A stretch of 64,000 bases of DNA from Marinitoga piezophila KA3 (lineage in GTDB: Bacteria > Thermotogota > Thermotogae > Petrotogales > Petrotogaceae), in assembly GCF_000255135.1 (NCBI RefSeq), contig NC_016751.1, forward strand, positions 1,364,001 to 1,428,000, written 5' to 3'. Made by a program: the position numbers and the translations under genes. This document shows, one piece after another, positions 17,127 through 28,085 of this stretch (within the stretch, counting starts at the first letter, position 1; the number at the start of each line of letters is the position of its first letter). The notes beneath the pieces are model-generated. The model did no database searches. It saw only the letters and a list, made by a program, of their open reading frames with translations, and was not told the DNA's origin.

Positions 17127-17160
17127 GAAATAGGCTGGATTTCTCCAGCCTATTTCTTAT
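17123..17160. terminator. Bidirectional terminator containing both stop codons
   Basis: Perfect 16-bp inverted repeat (17123-17138 and 17145-17160) around an ATTTCT loop, T-rich on both strands. It includes the TAA of the plus-strand enolase-like gene and the TAA of the minus-strand LVIVD lipoprotein. Confidence 0.9.
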
Positions 17161-19019
17161 TTTGCGATGCCGTTAAATATACCCCATGGCATATCTTTAA
17201 CTATTTCAGGATTCGAAGGATCAGAAATATCTGCTATAATTATGCCGTTTTTGTAATCAGCAATATATGCATAATTTCCAGAAATGTTTATATATAGCGT
17301 AACATCTTTTGAGTTTATATGTCCTTTTTCCTGAATATTATTTATATCAGAAATATCAAATATTTTCATTCCATCCCATAAAGCAGCGACATATAAATAA
17401 TTTCCGGAAATATTAAGTGAATATATATAATTGTCAAAAGATAAAGTGGTTATTTTTTCAATATTTGAAATATCAGAAATACTATAAATATCGATACTTT
17501 TATTTGCTAAAGCAGCATAAAGGTAATTATTATTTACATATATGTCTCTTATTGAATCAGCTAAATCGATAATTTTTAGTAATTCTGGATTATTAATATC
17601 TTTAATATTAAAAATATATAAATGCTTATTATAATCACCCAAATATAAATAATCATCTTTAGCAAATACATTTCTAATATTTTCTGTTGTAGTAATCTTA
17701 TTTATTATCGTTGGACTTCCAGGTATTGTTGTATCAAATATATATGTTTCCGTTGATAAATTTGTAACATATAATTTAGTTCCATCCATACTCAAATCAA
17801 ATGTGGATTTTGATAGAGATGTTTGAGAAACAATGGTACTTTCTTCTGTATTTGAAATATCCAAGGTTTCTAATCCATTATAACCACCAGCAATATATGC
17901 AAAATCATCATAAAAAAGTATATTCTTTGGATATCCTGTTATATTTAATGTTTTTATAAATTCAGGATTTTTAGGATCTTCAACATTAAAAATCTTAATA
18001 CCATCATATAGGTCTAAAGTAAATAAATAATTATCTTTAACACCTAAATTATATACAGCAGTTCCCAACATATAATGTGAAATCTCTTTTAGGTTATTAA
18101 TATCTGAAATATCGACTATTTTTAGACCATCATCACCGGCAAGGTATAAAATGCTATTTTCCAGATAAAAGTCTTTATATGTACCCATTCCACCATATAA
18201 ACCTATTTGTTTTATATTATCAATATCTGAAATATCATAAATTTTAACACCAGCATCGGAAGAAAATAGATAGTTTCCACTGATGTATAAATAAACTACA
18301 TAGGTTCCCTCGTGTTTTAAAGTTGTTATTTGTTCAATATTTTCAGGATCAGAAATATCAATAACAACTATGCCATTTTGACTATCAGCAATAAATGCAT
18401 AATTGTCTTTTACAGTTACATATTGACTATATCCGTCTGTATCAAAGTTAGTAATTTTCTCGACATTATTTATGTCAGAAATATCAAAAATTTCAATTCC
18501 TGAAGATCCTTCAGCAACAAAAGCATAATTGTCTTTAATAAAAATAGAATATGCAAGATCAGAAGTATTGAATTCCGTTAAAGATTTAATATTTTTGGGA
18601 TCAGAGATATCAAAAATTTTTATACCTCCGTCTCCAGCTGCAATAAATAAAAGATTGTTTTTTACAAATAAATCACCACTGTAACCACCGAATATATAAT
18701 CTTTCAATAATAGAGGTTTTTTAGGATCAGAGATATCGAAAACTGATAATAGATTGTTACCAACAGCGAAAATATAATTGTCTTTTTTATATAGATCAAA
18801 TAATTCATGAGTTAACTCGAGATGTGATAATAAAGTAAGTTTAGAGGTATCGCTTACATCAAATAAATTAAGTCCATCATATCCAGCCAGCGCTAAAATT
18901 TCATAAGTGGGTTCTTCGTTTTCGGTATTATCAGAGGGTTTTTCTTCTGTTTGGACACATGCATACATAAAAAACATCATAGAAATAACTAATAAAACAA
19001 CAAAAAGTTTTTTAAACAT
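17157..19019 (-). CDS. Lipoprotein with 14 LVIVD-type repeats (beta-propeller)
   Basis: A 620-residue lipoprotein: signal peptide with lipobox MYAC (Cys21), a short acidic linker, then about 14 repeats of 40-42 residues with the core I-x-(I/V)-(F/Y/V)-D-I-S-D-x-x-N-(I/P)-x. This is the LVIVD repeat, which forms beta-propeller blades; 14 blades would make two seven-bladed propellers. It should sit on a membrane facing the periplasm or the surface. Function is unknown; such proteins are typically binding or scaffold modules. ATG with GGAGG. It converges on the enolase-like gene and diverges from the glucan-binding locus. Confidence 0.85.
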   Translation of the reverse strand: MFKKLFVVLLVISMMFFMYACVQTEEKPSDNTENEEPTYEILALAGYDGLNLFDVSDTSKLTLLSHLELTHELFDLYKKDNYIFAVGNNLLSVFDISDPKKPLLLKDYIFGGYSGDLFVKNNLLFIAAGDGGIKIFDISDPKNIKSLTEFNTSDLAYSIFIKDNYAFVAEGSSGIEIFDISDINNVEKITNFDTDGYSQYVTVKDNYAFIADSQNGIVVIDISDPENIEQITTLKHEGTYVVYLYISGNYLFSSDAGVKIYDISDIDNIKQIGLYGGMGTYKDFYLENSILYLAGDDGLKIVDISDINNLKEISHYMLGTAVYNLGVKDNYLFTLDLYDGIKIFNVEDPKNPEFIKTLNITGYPKNILFYDDFAYIAGGYNGLETLDISNTEESTIVSQTSLSKSTFDLSMDGTKLYVTNLSTETYIFDTTIPGSPTIINKITTTENIRNVFAKDDYLYLGDYNKHLYIFNIKDINNPELLKIIDLADSIRDIYVNNNYLYAALANKSIDIYSISDISNIEKITTLSFDNYIYSLNISGNYLYVAALWDGMKIFDISDINNIQEKGHINSKDVTLYINISGNYAYIADYKNGIIIADISDPSNPEIVKDMPWGIFNGIAK

Positions 19020-19304: not shown

Positions 19305-19333
19305 TTTATATATATTTTTTGAAGTTGTATAAT
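19305..19333 (+). promoter_or_regulatory. Candidate promoter of the outer-envelope locus
   Basis: TATAAT at 19328-19333 with TTTATA 17 bases upstream. The first gene starts 48 bases after the -10, behind GGAGGGGG. Confidence 0.5.
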
Positions 19334-19381: not shown

Positions 19382-21280
19382 ATGAAAAAGGCAGTATTTA
19401 TTTTAAGTTTATTGGTAGTTTTATCTATGGTATTTGTAGGATGTTTTCCAAAGCCTAAAGAGCCTATAAAATTGGAAGATGGTTATTATCTTTATTTTTC
19501 TAATAGCGAATGGAATTTTAGTTTAATTCCTGATTGGAAGTTTGTAAAACAGGATGATGGAACATATAAACTGGAAATTTCTGGTTTGGATTTAGCAGAA
19601 AATGTACCAGCACCTAAAAATGCTGAAAAAGTATGGTGGTGGAAAGTTGTTCAAATTACAGGAGATAGTTCTATAGCTTACGGTGGATTTGAAAAAAATG
19701 ATCCAAGTGTTCCAATGGATCCTGATATAGCAAAGAATATGGATAAGGTTGTATTTTATTTTGATCCTTCAGCAGATACAACAACAGATCACAAAACAAT
19801 AGCAGGAGTTATGGGAGATAATACAAAAGATGCATCAACTATATATTTTGTAGGTTCTCCAACAGGTTGGGATTTTGTTGAAATGACTAATGGTACTTAT
19901 ATAGTTGATACAACAAAAATATCTTCCAGAACAATATTTGGACCAGAAAATCCTATGGGATTCAAAATTTCTTTAGGTTATGATCATTGGGATAAAACAG
20001 ATGAAGAAAAACCTTTTTTCTTTACACAAGGACATTATTATGGAGTTGGTACAGGAAACGAATATAAATATTTCACTGAAGGAAATTATGTAATGGGAGC
20101 AAAAGTTACATTTGATCCACATTTTTCAAAATTAACAGTTGAACCACTTGAAAATATTTCAACAATTTCTAGCGTGATAGATAAAATCGATTCTGAAGGT
20201 ACAATAGAAGCAACTAGTGTTGGGGTAGTTAATTATAAGTACAGTACATATGTTTTTATTCAAGATTCCAGTCGAGGAATTGAAGTATATAAACCATATA
20301 ATATAGAAGATTTGAAAGTTGGAGATCTTATATATGTAGAGGGCAGTGCAAAGAAATATGAAGATACTTACGAATATTCTTTAAATAATTCAGCTACTGT
20401 TACAGTGTTAAAATCAAATATAATTTTAGATCCAGAAGATATTACAGGAATAGAAATAAAGGATAATTGGAATTATTATGGGAAATTAGTAAAATTTAAA
20501 GGGATATGTAAAGAAGCTGATGATAATTATGGCAATGCAACTTTTGAATCTGAAAATGCAACTATAGTTGTAAAAAATTATGTAGGAAAAGAATTTGTAG
20601 AAGGAATAAAATATACAATAACAGGTGTGGTTATGTATAATCATGACCAATTAAAAGTTGTTCCAAGAAAAACATCAGATATTGCAGCACCAGGTCAGAT
20701 AATAATAGATGGTGATTTATCCGATTGGACAGATTATGCAACAAAAACAGTTCTTGATGATGCTGATGATGATAGTAAATGGGGAGAATCAAATGATATT
20801 AATTGGTTGGGATTTGCAAATGATGACGAATATTTATATATAGGTGCTAAATATAAGGCTTCAAGTAATGGATTTATTGTATATGTTTCAAAAGAAGGAG
20901 CTACCGGTGGAGCAACAGATATGAATTTTGGAGCTTGGCCACGAGTTATCCAGACACAAGAAGGAACACCTATACATTTCTTTATAGCTTCATGGGAACA
21001 TGGAGATCCTCAATTGTGGACAGTAGATAGTACCACAACAAAAACTCAGCATGATGAATATATAGTATCAAAAACTAATACAGATCCTATAATGGAAGTA
21101 AAAATAAAATTATCAGATCTTGGTTTAAGTAAGGGAGATAAGATTAAATTTGTAGGAACTATTGTTGGAGGAGATAATGCTTCTGCACCTGATACCACAC
21201 CAGATAATCCATATCCAGATGGTTGGAATTGGAATGTACCTTTAACAATTGTTAATATGCAAGAATATACCGTTCAATAA
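19382..21280 (+). CDS. Large lipoprotein with carbohydrate-binding-like and OB-like domains
   Basis: A 632-residue lipoprotein (lipobox FVGC, Cys21). Domain order by eye: residues 28-90 and 155-250, two beta-sandwich units with W-rich starch-binding-like strands (YYLYFSNSEWN; IYFVGSPTGWDFVEM); 256-420, an OB-fold-like part (YVFIQDSSRGIEVYKP; LKVGDLIYVEGSAKKY); 437-632, a module beginning IIIDGDLSDW, as in CBM9/DOMON-like domains of amylases and dextranases. No catalytic glycosidase motif is seen. Likely a surface glucan-binding lipoprotein, comparable in role to SusE/F (inference). First gene of the locus; a partial terminator follows it, so downstream genes may be expressed at a lower level. 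Confidence 0.65.
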   Translation: MKKAVFILSLLVVLSMVFVGCFPKPKEPIKLEDGYYLYFSNSEWNFSLIPDWKFVKQDDGTYKLEISGLDLAENVPAPKNAEKVWWWKVVQITGDSSIAYGGFEKNDPSVPMDPDIAKNMDKVVFYFDPSADTTTDHKTIAGVMGDNTKDASTIYFVGSPTGWDFVEMTNGTYIVDTTKISSRTIFGPENPMGFKISLGYDHWDKTDEEKPFFFTQGHYYGVGTGNEYKYFTEGNYVMGAKVTFDPHFSKLTVEPLENISTISSVIDKIDSEGTIEATSVGVVNYKYSTYVFIQDSSRGIEVYKPYNIEDLKVGDLIYVEGSAKKYEDTYEYSLNNSATVTVLKSNIILDPEDITGIEIKDNWNYYGKLVKFKGICKEADDNYGNATFESENATIVVKNYVGKEFVEGIKYTITGVVMYNHDQLKVVPRKTSDIAAPGQIIIDGDLSDWTDYATKTVLDDADDDSKWGESNDINWLGFANDDEYLYIGAKYKASSNGFIVYVSKEGATGGATDMNFGAWPRVIQTQEGTPIHFFIASWEHGDPQLWTVDSTTTKTQHDEYIVSKTNTDPIMEVKIKLSDLGLSKGDKIKFVGTIVGGDNASAPDTTPDNPYPDGWNWNVPLTIVNMQEYTVQ

Positions 21281-21292
21281 ATTCAATACATC

Positions 21293-21321
21293 CCCACCTC
21301 AATTTTGGGGTGGGTTTTTTT
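21293..21321 (+). terminator. Intra-operon terminator or attenuator
   Basis: Stem CCCACCTCAA / TTGGGGTGGG (one U-G pair) followed by seven T, between the two lipoprotein genes; the next ribosome site begins 10 bases later. It may reduce read-through or stabilise the first message. Confidence 0.8.
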
Positions 21322-21343
21322 AAAGGAAGTGGAGGTGATTTTT

Positions 21344-22069
21344 TTGAGGAAAGTTTTAATTTTAATACTTTTTTCTATTTTTTTATTTTCTGGATGCTTA
21401 ATGAATATTTTGGGATTATCTGTACCTGAAGGGTTATACGTTGGTTATGATGGAAATAACTGGATGCAGACGGATGATAAAACGCTTATAGAAAATAGTA
21501 AATTTGTTTATGATGCGAATTTAAAATTATATAAGGTAACAATAGATAAAGAAAAAATAAATTTTGGAGAAATCCAAAATAATGATTCAATATTTAAAAT
21601 GGGATATTATAAGGTTTATTATGTAAAGAATGATGGCAATATTGCATCCAATAGTATTCCTATTTTAGAAACTGCTGCAACTGAAGATAAAATAACAATA
21701 TATTTAGATCTTGAAAGATTAAGTGAAGGGAAATCCACAGGTATTGGCGATGATACAAAACTCAATATGGAATGGTATTTTGCAGGAACTCCAAATAATT
21801 GGACTCCTGAAAAAATGACAAAAAAAGATGATTATTTTGAAATTACAATAAACAAAACATATAATGCAAATGATAGTATTGAATACAAAATTCCACCATC
21901 TACAACATGGATGCCATGGCAGATGATTTTCAATGGTGAGGTGTATTCAGATTCATCTCAAAATCAAAGATATACATTTAAAAGCAATGTAAATGGTTTT
22001 ACAGTTAAGTTTTATCCACTGATAGGTAAGGTTGATATTGTTGAATTAAAGGTTGGTGATTCTCAATGA
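21344..22069 (+). CDS. Lipoprotein with two starch-binding-like beta domains
   Basis: A 241-residue lipoprotein (lipobox FSGC, Cys18). Residues 28-115 and 138-235 look like two beta-sandwich units; the second opens MEWYFAGTPNNWTPEKMT, close in form to CBM48/CBM20-type strands and to the second domain of the preceding lipoprotein. Start: TTG at 21344, 5 bases after a perfect GGAGGTGA. An in-frame ATG at 21305 lies inside the terminator and would bury the signal peptide. Its end overlaps the next gene by 4 bases (ATGA). Probable partner of the barrel and of the CBM48 fusion in binding glucans at the cell surface. Confidence 0.7.
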   Translation: MRKVLILILFSIFLFSGCLMNILGLSVPEGLYVGYDGNNWMQTDDKTLIENSKFVYDANLKLYKVTIDKEKINFGEIQNNDSIFKMGYYKVYYVKNDGNIASNSIPILETAATEDKITIYLDLERLSEGKSTGIGDDTKLNMEWYFAGTPNNWTPEKMTKKDDYFEITINKTYNANDSIEYKIPPSTTWMPWQMIFNGEVYSDSSQNQRYTFKSNVNGFTVKFYPLIGKVDIVELKVGDSQ

Positions 22070-23439
22070 AAAAAATCATGATCTATATTTTGTTGATTAT
22101 TCCATTAATTGCGTTTTCTCAGGTGGGAATTAATGCTAATGTTGAAAGTTCGTGGACATATGATTTTGAAGCCTCACCAACTCAATTTTATTGGAATGGT
22201 ATGAAATTTGATATTTATTTAAAACCAGATTCAACAAACTTTTTTGGCTCATTTAATTTGAATAGAGGGGATGACAATAATTATTATGTAACCGATGGAG
22301 AATTTGAATTTAAATTTGATTCCAATAAAATTACAACATTCTGGAAGAAGAAAAGCGTTAATACTACCGATTGGATTAATGCTTTCAATAATGAAAAAAT
22401 TGGTGCTGTAAATGGTTTAAAAGCTAATTTTGATATATCGTTATTTTCTTTAGAAACATATTTAGTAAAAAGAGAAAGTGAAAATTCTTCTTTGTTTATT
22501 TCTCAAATTAGAGGAATACCTTTTGGACAACTTTATTATAGCTATATATATGGTAGAGAGTTTTATACAAAATATATTTATACAGATTGGAGAATGTTTG
22601 ATTTTAATTTTACTCAGGATAATTTTCAATTATTGGGTGAATTTGGATATTCATATGAAAAAGGAGTTTTTTATTTAGAGGATAATTATTTTATTTTTCT
22701 TGGTAATAGGCTTAATTACAAAGATTTTGAGACTGCTGTTTATTTAAAATATTTATCTCCTGAATTTGATAAAAAATATCTTCCAGATAGTTTTAAACAA
22801 AACGTTTATGGAGAGGTAAAAGTAAAAAATATAGGAGTTTCTTCTGAAGTAAATTATTCTTTTGAAGATAATACACTTTCTTTTGATAAATTTAGTATTG
22901 ATTATATAAAAAATTATTTAAAAATAAATGATTTTAATTATCTTTATGTTGGCCTGGCTAAAAATTTTGATTTAAACAAATCAGAAATAGCATTAAATTT
23001 ACCATTTCATTTTAATAATATGTTTGATTTAACAGTTTCTGGTTATAAAAAGGGTATGGAAGATAATTGGTCTAATATAAAGAAATATTCAGATTTTGCT
23101 ATTTCGGCAAACATGAAAGGTAATTTTATGAATACTTATTATAATTTATTGTATATTTTTGGAAATAAAAATGTTGAGATAGAAGATAGCGTGGTATATA
23201 GTGGAGGTTTTTCGGAAGTTCTATATGGTTCTGTTTCGAGAGGATTTGGAGACGTAAACTTTTTTATTAAGGGAATGTATATATATGGTGCAATAGAAAG
23301 ATATAAAACATTATATGCCGAAGCTAAGTATACAGGTTTTTCAAATTCTGAGATTATTTTATCATTAGGCGACGGAAACTTTGGAGCAAGCAAAAATTTT
23401 TCAAAAAGAATCTCATTAACTGTAAAAACAGGATTTTAG
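22066..23439 (+). CDS. Outer-envelope beta-barrel-like protein
   Basis: A 457-residue protein with a cleavable signal peptide (ends about residue 18, AFS-Q) and, throughout, amphipathic strands of 8-12 residues rich in aromatics. It ends SLTVKTGF with a terminal Phe, the signature of barrels handled by the BAM machinery. Few Cys, and no helices. I infer a pore or barrel in the toga, about 18-22 strands long, serving the surrounding binding lipoproteins. Translationally coupled by ATGA to the upstream lipoprotein. No sequence family recognised. Confidence 0.6.
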   Translation: MKKIMIYILLIIPLIAFSQVGINANVESSWTYDFEASPTQFYWNGMKFDIYLKPDSTNFFGSFNLNRGDDNNYYVTDGEFEFKFDSNKITTFWKKKSVNTTDWINAFNNEKIGAVNGLKANFDISLFSLETYLVKRESENSSLFISQIRGIPFGQLYYSYIYGREFYTKYIYTDWRMFDFNFTQDNFQLLGEFGYSYEKGVFYLEDNYFIFLGNRLNYKDFETAVYLKYLSPEFDKKYLPDSFKQNVYGEVKVKNIGVSSEVNYSFEDNTLSFDKFSIDYIKNYLKINDFNYLYVGLAKNFDLNKSEIALNLPFHFNNMFDLTVSGYKKGMEDNWSNIKKYSDFAISANMKGNFMNTYYNLLYIFGNKNVEIEDSVVYSGGFSEVLYGSVSRGFGDVNFFIKGMYIYGAIERYKTLYAEAKYTGFSNSEIILSLGDGNFGASKNFSKRISLTVKTGF

Positions 23440-23451
23440 GAGGTGTAATGG

Positions 23452-24690
23452 GTGAAAAGAATATATGTTATTTTAATTGTATTAATTATGGGTATTTCTG
23501 TTTTTTCAAAGATTTATATAGATAATAATATGGTTGTTTTTGAATATAAAGATATAACAGCATCTGCAGTTTATCTTGCAGGTAGCTTTAATAACTGGAA
23601 TTCATCTGCTTTATTAATGAAAAAAGTAAATAATGGAGTATGGAGAATAGCAATAAAACTTTCTCCTGGTGAATATCAGTATAAATTTGTTATAAATGGA
23701 AGTGATTGGAAGGAAGACCCTGAAGCCCCGGGATATGTGCCTGATGGATTTGGTGGGAAAAATGGAGTTTTTACTTTAGTATTAGAAAATGGAACATTAA
23801 AAATCAAAAAAGCAGAAAAAGAGACAAATAATATATTATCTGGAGGATATAAGTTTAGTTTAAATTCTAAAATAGATAAGGATACTTTTTCGTTAAAAAC
23901 TCCAGAAATAAATCATGAATTTATTTTAACAATTAATCCAGATAAAGGTAATATGAAATTTGAAGCAAATTTATATGCAGATAATACAAACTGGCAATTT
24001 AAATTAAAATCATTAAAGATAAATTGGGAAAACGAAAAATATCTCTTTGGAATATATAACAATGCAGCTTCTAATAATTTATGGAATTTTTATGAAGAAA
24101 ATATAGAAAAAACGAATATAGGTTTTTATGGAGGAATAAAAACTTCTGTATTAGATATAACTCTTGATATTTATTCAAAAAATAACAATATTCAATATAT
24201 GTTATTATCAAAAACAAGTATGGAAGACATAAATGGTTATTTTGGATATATTCCAGCTACAGATGATTCATCTATGAATATTTATGCAAGAGTTAAATAC
24301 TTAAATATTGGTATTGAAGGGAAATATTCAGATTCCTTAGAATATGTAAAAGGAGATTATGAAAATGATGATCTTTATTTTGAAGGAATGTATGAATTTG
24401 ATAAGAAAAATGTAGTTTTATATTCTGAGATATTATCTTTATCAAATATTTATACGGAATATAATACATCAGAAAAAACATATTTTGTAGAAGTTAATTT
24501 AAATATACCGGTTTTAAGTAATTTAAATGGTATTGGGAATTTACATTATGACAATGATGGAAATATAGGTTATAATGCAGGTATAAAATTGATTGAAGAT
24601 GAAAATTCTGTAAGTATAACATTAGGACATAAATTTGATGAAGGTTTTAAAGATTATTATTTTATGTTTAATGCAAGTGCTGAATTCTAA
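23452..24690 (+). CDS. CBM48 domain fused to a beta-barrel-like protein
   Basis: A 412-residue secreted protein. After the signal peptide (about 1-19), residues 25-120 form a clear CBM48/AMPK glycogen-binding domain: YLAGSFNNWN, GVWRIAIKLSPGEYQYKFVI, DWKEDPEAPGYV, DGFGGKNGVF. The remaining 290 residues are alternating amphipathic strands ending NASAEF, a barrel-like ending in Phe. Start is GTG at 23452 with GGAGGTG; a nearby ATG at 23448 is out of frame. I infer a surface barrel that displays or traps alpha-glucan via its N-terminal domain. No hydrolase motifs. Last gene before a strong terminator. Confidence 0.75.
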   Translation: MKRIYVILIVLIMGISVFSKIYIDNNMVVFEYKDITASAVYLAGSFNNWNSSALLMKKVNNGVWRIAIKLSPGEYQYKFVINGSDWKEDPEAPGYVPDGFGGKNGVFTLVLENGTLKIKKAEKETNNILSGGYKFSLNSKIDKDTFSLKTPEINHEFILTINPDKGNMKFEANLYADNTNWQFKLKSLKINWENEKYLFGIYNNAASNNLWNFYEENIEKTNIGFYGGIKTSVLDITLDIYSKNNNIQYMLLSKTSMEDINGYFGYIPATDDSSMNIYARVKYLNIGIEGKYSDSLEYVKGDYENDDLYFEGMYEFDKKNVVLYSEILSLSNIYTEYNTSEKTYFVEVNLNIPVLSNLNGIGNLHYDNDGNIGYNAGIKLIEDENSVSITLGHKFDEGFKDYYFMFNASAEF

Positions 24691-24717
24691 CCCCTGAAAC
24701 ATCAGGGGTTATTTTTT
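24691..24717 (+). terminator. Terminator of the outer-envelope locus
   Basis: Stem CCCCTGA / TCAGGGG with loop AACA at 24691-24708, then TTATTTTTTT. Confidence 0.9.
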
Positions 24718-27362: not shown

Positions 27363-27392
27363 AAAAATTAATAAATGCAGGGAAGTGATTTT

Positions 27393-28085
27393 ATGAAAAA
27401 GCTTCTTTTAACGCTAATTTTATTTGTAAATGTGATGTTTTTTGGTTTTGAAACATTATTGCCTTCAGGAGAGGTATTAGATGAAGGGATTTTGAAAATT
27501 GATACAATCACTCCCGGAGTTGCAGCTATTAGATATGGGTTATTTGGAATTATGGAAGTTGGTGTTTCAACAAGCAATGGAGGAGCCTATATTAAAGTTG
27601 GAAGTAATAAGATGGGAGATCTTCCTCTGGCAGGTTCTGTTTCTTTTGGTTTTGAAGGTGTGGAAAGTGCCCACATAATAGGAAATATTTCTTATATAAG
27701 CGATTCGTTAAAACTATCTGTGGGGACAGACTATACACAAAAAATGGAAACAGAATTTAATGAAACAACACAGGAGCCGAAAACTATTATCGATTCATAT
27801 TTCAATATTTTCGGAGGGTTAAATTATTTAATAAGTAGCGACGAAAAGACGGATAAGTTTTTAAATATTGAAGTAACAACAGGATTTAAAAGCAATGGAA
27901 CTGAATATGGTATAGCTGGTTATATTTATGGAATTCAGTCATTTAAAAAGTTCTGGTTGTTTAATAAGGTAAATGTTTTTGGTGGATTGGCTGTGGTAAA
28001 TCCATCAATTCCTCCAAATATTCTGGAAAATTTCAGAGTAGTTTTTGGACTGAATACAGAAATAAATCTATTTGGAAATAAATAA
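27393..28085 (+). CDS. Secreted beta-rich protein of unknown function
   Basis: A 230-residue protein with a signal peptide (MKKLLLTLILFVNVMFFG). The rest is strand-rich with many Gly (LFGIMEVGVSTSNGGAYIKV), like a small outer-envelope barrel, ending EINLFGNK. No family recognised. The ATG at 27393 follows GGGAAGTGA; an upstream in-frame ATG at 27375 lacks a signal peptide. It follows infB by 30 bases and ends in a hairpin terminator. Confidence 0.6.
   Translation: MKKLLLTLILFVNVMFFGFETLLPSGEVLDEGILKIDTITPGVAAIRYGLFGIMEVGVSTSNGGAYIKVGSNKMGDLPLAGSVSFGFEGVESAHIIGNISYISDSLKLSVGTDYTQKMETEFNETTQEPKTIIDSYFNIFGGLNYLISSDEKTDKFLNIEVTTGFKSNGTEYGIAGYIYGIQSFKKFWLFNKVNVFGGLAVVNPSIPPNILENFRVVFGLNTEINLFGNK

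Follow-up and report, generated by a model that had tools for sequence, protein, structure and literature searches.

The amylases of the toga have been studied for decades in the Thermotogota, whose genomes are without the plugs of TonB receptors. A locus of four genes in Marinitoga piezophila KA3 (genome of 2.24 Mb) bears on how large glucans pass across the outer envelope of these bacteria, and it was analysed within a stretch of 64,000 nt (NC_016751.1, positions 1,364,001-1,428,000), referred to below as the window. Judged from their sequences, the four genes, named A to D, probably encode (at a rough probability of 0.78) an outer-envelope system of the Thermotogota for the capture and uptake of alpha-glucans such as starch, glycogen and maltodextrin, which would be independent of TonB. 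The locus, found in 33 of 103 genomes of the class, offers a likely pore and likely binding proteins for the entry of glucans, and a porin that carries a fused CBM48 module would represent a novel design for taking up glycans.

Organization of the locus

The four open reading frames proposed by the initial annotation are real, correctly placed and all encoded on the + strand (Table 1). Its two lipoproteins are A and B, both of which carry lipoboxes. The start of B was revised to a TTG at 21344, which is preceded by GGAGGTG, and its lipobox cysteine is invariant among 13 diverse homologues. The barrel gene with a terminal Phe corresponds to C, and the fusion of CBM48 with a barrel corresponds to D. 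The signal peptides of C and D are without Cys, and Phe is the last residue of both proteins. Nearly every other locus also has Phe at the end of D, and either Phe or Trp at the end of C; the split C of Marinitoga lauensis is likewise terminated by Phe.

Proteins A, B and C matched no Pfam or NCBIfam family above the cut-off, and the NCBIfam search of A-D returned nothing beyond the CBM48/AMPK module that Pfam assigns to D. Searches of PDB sequences with the profiles of B and C and with A retrieved zero relatives.

Table 1. Features of the Marinitoga piezophila KA3 locus, in positions of the window.
Feature	Position	Strand	Basis
Sigma-70-like promoter candidate 5' of A	19305..19333	+	TTTATA-17-TATAAT
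A, 632-aa lipoprotein	19382..21280	+	ORF and lipobox ...MVFVGC
DGDLSDW domain of A, residues 431-632	20672..21277	+	HMM of the family, run on all loci
Terminator-like hairpin between A and B	21293..21314	+	9 pairs, then TTTTTTT
B, 241-aa lipoprotein, core gene	21344..22069	+	Tandem CBM48-like domains (predicted); lipobox ...FLFSGC
C, 457 aa, predicted outer-membrane beta-barrel, core gene	22066..23439	+	~20-23 strands, C-terminal Phe
D, 412 aa, core gene	23452..24690	+	CBM48 fused to predicted porin-type barrel
CBM48 module of D, residues 20-122	23509..23817	+	Profile match and conserved residues
Predicted barrel domain of D	23836..24687	+	~16 strands, C-terminal Phe
Intrinsic-terminator-like hairpin directly 3' of D	24688..24711	+	Closes the unit at its 3' end

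The description of the four genes as one unit holds for B, C and D, which are contiguous, with an overlap of 4 bases between B and C and a spacing of 12 bases between C and D; it does not extend simply to A, which is separated from B by a terminator-like hairpin. The promoter candidate upstream of A is weak, since similar sites are as frequent in shuffled sequence. Hairpins occur in the A-B gap of most relatives, with differing sequences, and the folding z was <= -2 in 16 of 23 testable gaps. The gap of the window has a folding z of -0.9, which alone is not significant; what speaks for its hairpin is the terminator scan together with the relatives. Thermotoga-type loci have practically no gap at this position. 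The recurrence of the hairpin (L070-L107, across families) suggests a conserved differential expression inside the operon, most simply understood as production of the 5' lipoprotein (and of the amylase treated below) in excess over B, C and D.

Conservation and genomic context

Genes B, C and D were each searched separately in 40 relatives and always co-occurred, in an identical set of 12 family genomes (that of M. piezophila included). The profile of C gave strong matches in the 33 class genomes mentioned above, 12 in the family and, in two additional families, 15 and 6; two more genomes of the class were marginal. In addition, a contig profile search with the C alignment detected two loci, one in M. 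lauensis and one in a Thermotogota MAG. The surroundings of 25 loci besides that of the window were inspected, making 26 from three families, and in 26/26 the genes B, C and D directly follow one another on one strand, in an unchanged order. The conservation of gene order expected for Marinitoga and Petrotoga is thus present there and beyond these genera. By homology, the locus appears to be spread across the class, including the amyA-pulA region of Thermotoga, and its distribution is wider than Marinitoga and Petrotoga.

The genomic context of the locus differs: it is found at infB in the genus of the window, at zwf-pgl in Petrotoga-type genomes and in other places elsewhere. Three Petrotoga-type genomes lack the locus, and in them zwf-pgl runs directly into the next gene; these clean empty sites show the locus to be present or absent as a block. 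One locus (L071, 4005-4346) contains, 3' of D, a repeat of a C-terminal piece of the flanking epimerase gene, and in a genome of the same genus that lacks the locus (L115, 10922-12143) the epimerase is followed directly by a gene from the far side; these two arrangements hint at gain or loss of the locus by recombination. Frameshifts or stops split C of M. lauensis (L074/L092), the amylase of L076 and B of L072. The split C of M. lauensis is likely a sequencing error, because infB and other genes are split too. In the window, a 236-aa exported protein with no Pfam or NCBIfam match is encoded 3' of infB (27375-28085).

What varies in the locus is the large lipoprotein A, which stands outside the core formed by B, C and D. 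The whole gene is present in 4 of 7 genomes of the same genus (window included), and its C-terminal domain in one other genus. This DGDLSDW domain belongs, according to a family HMM that included the copy of the window, to the same family as the lipoprotein located between the amylase and B in Thermotogaceae-type loci. Across the loci, the position of A is occupied by DGDLSDW proteins, CBM48 lipoproteins or combinations of them. Residues ~293-373 of A gave a weak OB-fold match. Divergent from A in the window lies the gene of a lipoprotein of 620 aa built from LVIVD beta-propeller repeats (17157-19019, - strand), which is not found at the corresponding site of other same-genus loci.

CBM48 module of D and CBM48-like domains of B

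Residues 20-122 of D matched PF16561 with 46.8 bits (cut-off 26.8) and PF02922 with 35.2 bits (cut-off 22.4), and the N-terminus was assigned by Pfam to CBM48/AMPK1_CBM with an E-value of 3.6e-12. The module aligns with the glycogen-binding structures of AMPK-beta and with a type II pullulanase. The AMPK residues W100, K126 and W133 are required for glycogen binding (PMC2642990), and they align with W49, K78 and W86 of D, which are invariant in 12/12 Petrotogaceae-type homologues, as is N104. Petrotogaceae-type genomes have one CBM48 copy per D, and those of other families have three in tandem. Close to one of the loci (L102, 12978-13727) a truncated D-like protein is encoded that has two CBM48 modules but lacks the barrel.

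Similar modules were detected in B, whose second domain aligned with the CBM48 profile with a value of 94% and an E-value of 1.2e-7 (hhalign). A CBM48 HMM derived from D matched each half of several distant B homologues, and the equivalents of the ligand residues of D (W153, K182 and W189 of B) are invariant over 13 diverse sequences. From these profile relationships, B is predicted to be a tandem of CBM48-like domains. The N-terminal part of A is distantly related to B, the HMM of B also matching A-type proteins. The proposal of starch-binding-like sandwich domains in both lipoproteins is in line with the profile-profile match of B and with the distant relationship of A to it. A and B have no Pfam-level CBM assignment of their own, and both are putatively specific for glucans.

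Barrel proteins C and D

AlphaFold models reached modest pLDDT values (C, 55; D, 63), since only 3-4 sequences were available for each alignment. The best Foldseek matches of both models were almost all outer-membrane beta-barrels. Residues 124-412 of D matched porins of the BenF/OprD type (Z 12.6, rmsd 4.4, 258 residues); maltoporin, a trimeric pore of 18 strands with a greasy slide, gave a Z of 10.8, tied with many porins, and chitoporin was also near. C matched many barrels with Z of 12-14 and a large rmsd. A test free of structure models gave the same picture: the two-residue hydrophobic alternation, compared with shuffled sequences, had a median z of 2.3 in 26 C proteins and 2.8 in 26 D proteins, and of -0.6 in 290 neighbouring proteins (p ~1e-15, merely indicative because homologues are not independent). 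Peaks of the profile correspond to ~16 strands for the barrel of D and 20-23 for C. The agreement between fold class and alternation supports the prediction, already made in the initial annotation, that C and D are outer-membrane beta-barrels. Because the barrel models are of low confidence, the conducting protein, the number of strands and the size of the pore are uncertain.

Neither C nor D had a Pfam match to the LamB family. The identification of C as an LptD or a TonB receptor, suggested by the top Foldseek rows, was rejected: the rmsd was 11-25 A with a poor model, a search for a plug domain found none and many unrelated barrels score alike. D was also considered as an autotransporter passenger or type V protein, a candidate discarded given no Pfam match at the sequence level and ~16 or more strands by two methods.

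The presence of these barrels speaks against a purely adhesive function, in which the cells would attach to particles of starch or glycogen and the sugars would enter through the general porin OmpB. The several binding domains and the variable lipoproteins would suit adhesion, and a general porin of the toga exists (PMC3387000). On the other hand, the locus has two barrel genes, with C inside the invariant core. Maltodextrins beyond a few units normally require a dedicated pore, which also counts against adhesion alone, and we consider this explanation improbable.

Enzymes of the locus and the Thermotoga amyA-pulA region

In 13 of the 25 other loci (one of them frameshifted) the 5' gene encodes a GH13 alpha-amylase lipoprotein. 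It occupies this end in 5 of 6 Petrotoga-type loci, the sixth stopping at a contig edge, and in 8 of 14 loci of the other families. The three Thermotoga-type loci inspected have the order amylase, DGDLSDW lipoprotein, B, C, D and pullulanase; in them the gene 3' of D encodes an 843-aa pullulanase, which matches a T. maritima pullulanase module of solved structure (2j71), and malE is divergent at the other end.

A synteny table lists TM1839-TM1845 for the amyA-pulA region (PMC2246101), and TM1840 is AmyA, an enzyme of the toga (PMC3387000). Based on the gene order and on the PulA match, we infer that TM1841 is the DGDLSDW lipoprotein, TM1842 is B, TM1843 is C, TM1844 is D and TM1845 is the pullulanase. 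In the literature searchable here, TM1841-TM1844 appear solely in the synteny table, with no function, and the searchable literature on starch with toga or TonB and on CBM48 in Thermotogae assigned no function to them. The middle of the Thermotoga region thus identified is apparently the nearest relative of the locus of the window. The two are homologous, with B, C and D in the same order; the Thermotoga region has three CBM48 modules in D and the enzymes within the locus, whereas in the window D has a single CBM48, A is larger and the enzymes are missing.

No GH13 amylase or pullulanase was found by Pfam in the locus of the window. The absence of a glycosidase described initially is hence true for the genus of the window, but many relatives have the amylase, the pullulanase or both within the locus. 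The M. piezophila genome itself encodes an unlinked amylase lipoprotein (C2:542243-544081), 40% identical to the in-locus enzyme of Petrotoga; an unlinked pullulanase, exported and sharing 55% identity with PulA of Thermotoga; and a CBM48-GH13 protein, also exported. Homologues of the amylase and the pullulanase are thus retained in this genome, though unlinked from the locus.

The amylase, pullulanase and malE genes that adjoin the locus in relatives indicate an alpha-glucan as substrate, and together with the preserved ligand residues of CBM48 they favour the alpha-glucan reading of the initial annotation. These neighbours also bear on the opposite direction of transport, in which the cell would export or display on its surface an alpha-glucan of its own making, with barrels like AlgE or Wzi and with CBMs that retain the exopolysaccharide. 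AlgE and Wzi are in fact among the fold matches of D, and AlgE among those of C, and an exopolysaccharide would be bound by CBMs; but these matches are unspecific, as OprD-type porins, chitoporin and maltoporin score alike, and the genes next to the locus in relatives encode degradative enzymes and an importer, with no synthases. Export is for us a very unlikely explanation.

Proposed mechanism

For the capture and uptake of alpha-glucans we propose the following sequence of events. Anchored in the outer membrane (toga), A and B would hold glucan chains by their CBM48-like sandwich and DGDLSDW domains; their exposure at the surface is assumed by analogy with AmyA of T. maritima. The alpha-amylase lipoprotein, whose gene stands at the 5' end of the locus in many relatives but apart from it in the M. 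piezophila genome, would cut the chains, and the oligosaccharides would diffuse through barrel C, the barrel of D or both, independently of TonB. Incoming dextrins would be caught at the pore mouth, by default on its periplasmic side, by the CBM48 module(s) that D carries there; D may then pass them to the exported pullulanase and CBM48-amylase, followed by the MalEFG importer. In this scheme we infer the conducting barrel, the orientation of D and the direction of transport.

In an even-stranded barrel the N- and C-termini are both periplasmic. The ~16-strand barrel of D would therefore place its N-terminal CBM48 inside by default, and surface capture by this module, which the initial annotation implied, is not favoured by the topology rule. 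A periplasmic CBM48 fits the retention of glucans after entry, not their capture from outside.

This orientation is also the one that a structural role would have, in which D would fasten the toga to the cell in the manner of the SlpA/OmpM tethers, its periplasmic CBM48 holding on to a glycan made by the cell, with A-C as accessory envelope proteins. An N-terminal domain followed by a C-terminal porin barrel recalls OmpM1, which is present among the fold matches, and the toga is a loose sheath. However, close relatives with ordinary togas are without the locus, the locus is accompanied by amylase, pullulanase and malE, and the ligand residues of CBM48 are of the kind that binds alpha-1,4-glucan. 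In addition, OmpA and OmpB already serve as anchor and porin of the toga (PMC3387000). A tether thus seems unlikely in comparison with glucan uptake.

Going further than glucan uptake as such, a porin bearing CBM48 at its periplasmic mouth, a second barrel and CBM-lipoproteins could constitute a separate TonB-independent route for polysaccharides across the outer membrane. We advance this only tentatively, as a possibility somewhat short of even odds. It would be a device of capture and retention in the large periplasm of the Thermotogota, serving the toga amylases and replacing SusC/D.

Comparison with known systems

Among known systems, the tethers of the SlpA/OmpM type share with D an N-terminal domain and a C-terminal porin-like barrel, but their N-terminal domain is an SLH/coiled-coil anchor, and D has a CBM48 instead. 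The enterobacterial maltose/pullulan system (LamB/PulA/MalEFGK) resembles the proposed pathway in its TonB-independent pore, its pullulanase and its MalE-type importer, and differs from it in that C and D have no LamB-family sequence match; to our knowledge, the binding lipoproteins and the CBM-barrel fusion have no counterpart there.

With the SusCDEFG system of Bacteroides the locus shares its logic, that is, glucan-binding lipoproteins, an amylase lipoprotein and an outer-membrane barrel in one operon. At the sequence level, A and B had no Pfam match to SusD, even at an E-value of 1, nor to SusE/SusF; C and D had no match to Plug, and PF07715 is absent from 82/82 good genomes of the class. 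The reported absence of a SusC/D homologue is consistent with these searches, and SusC-type active import is ruled out because the class genomes are without the plugs of TonB receptors. Unlike SusCDEFG, therefore, the locus has no TonB-dependent barrel and no Pfam match to SusD or SusE/SusF; CBM48, in part as a barrel fusion, is its module for binding, and in the window there is no SusG-like amylase in the locus. The earlier view of a Sus-like logic built from unrelated parts, with binding lipoproteins and a barrel in place but no SusC/D homologue, agrees with this comparison. By its gene content, the locus would work like Sus, yet it is not a Sus member, and such a logic may have arisen more than once from unrelated parts.
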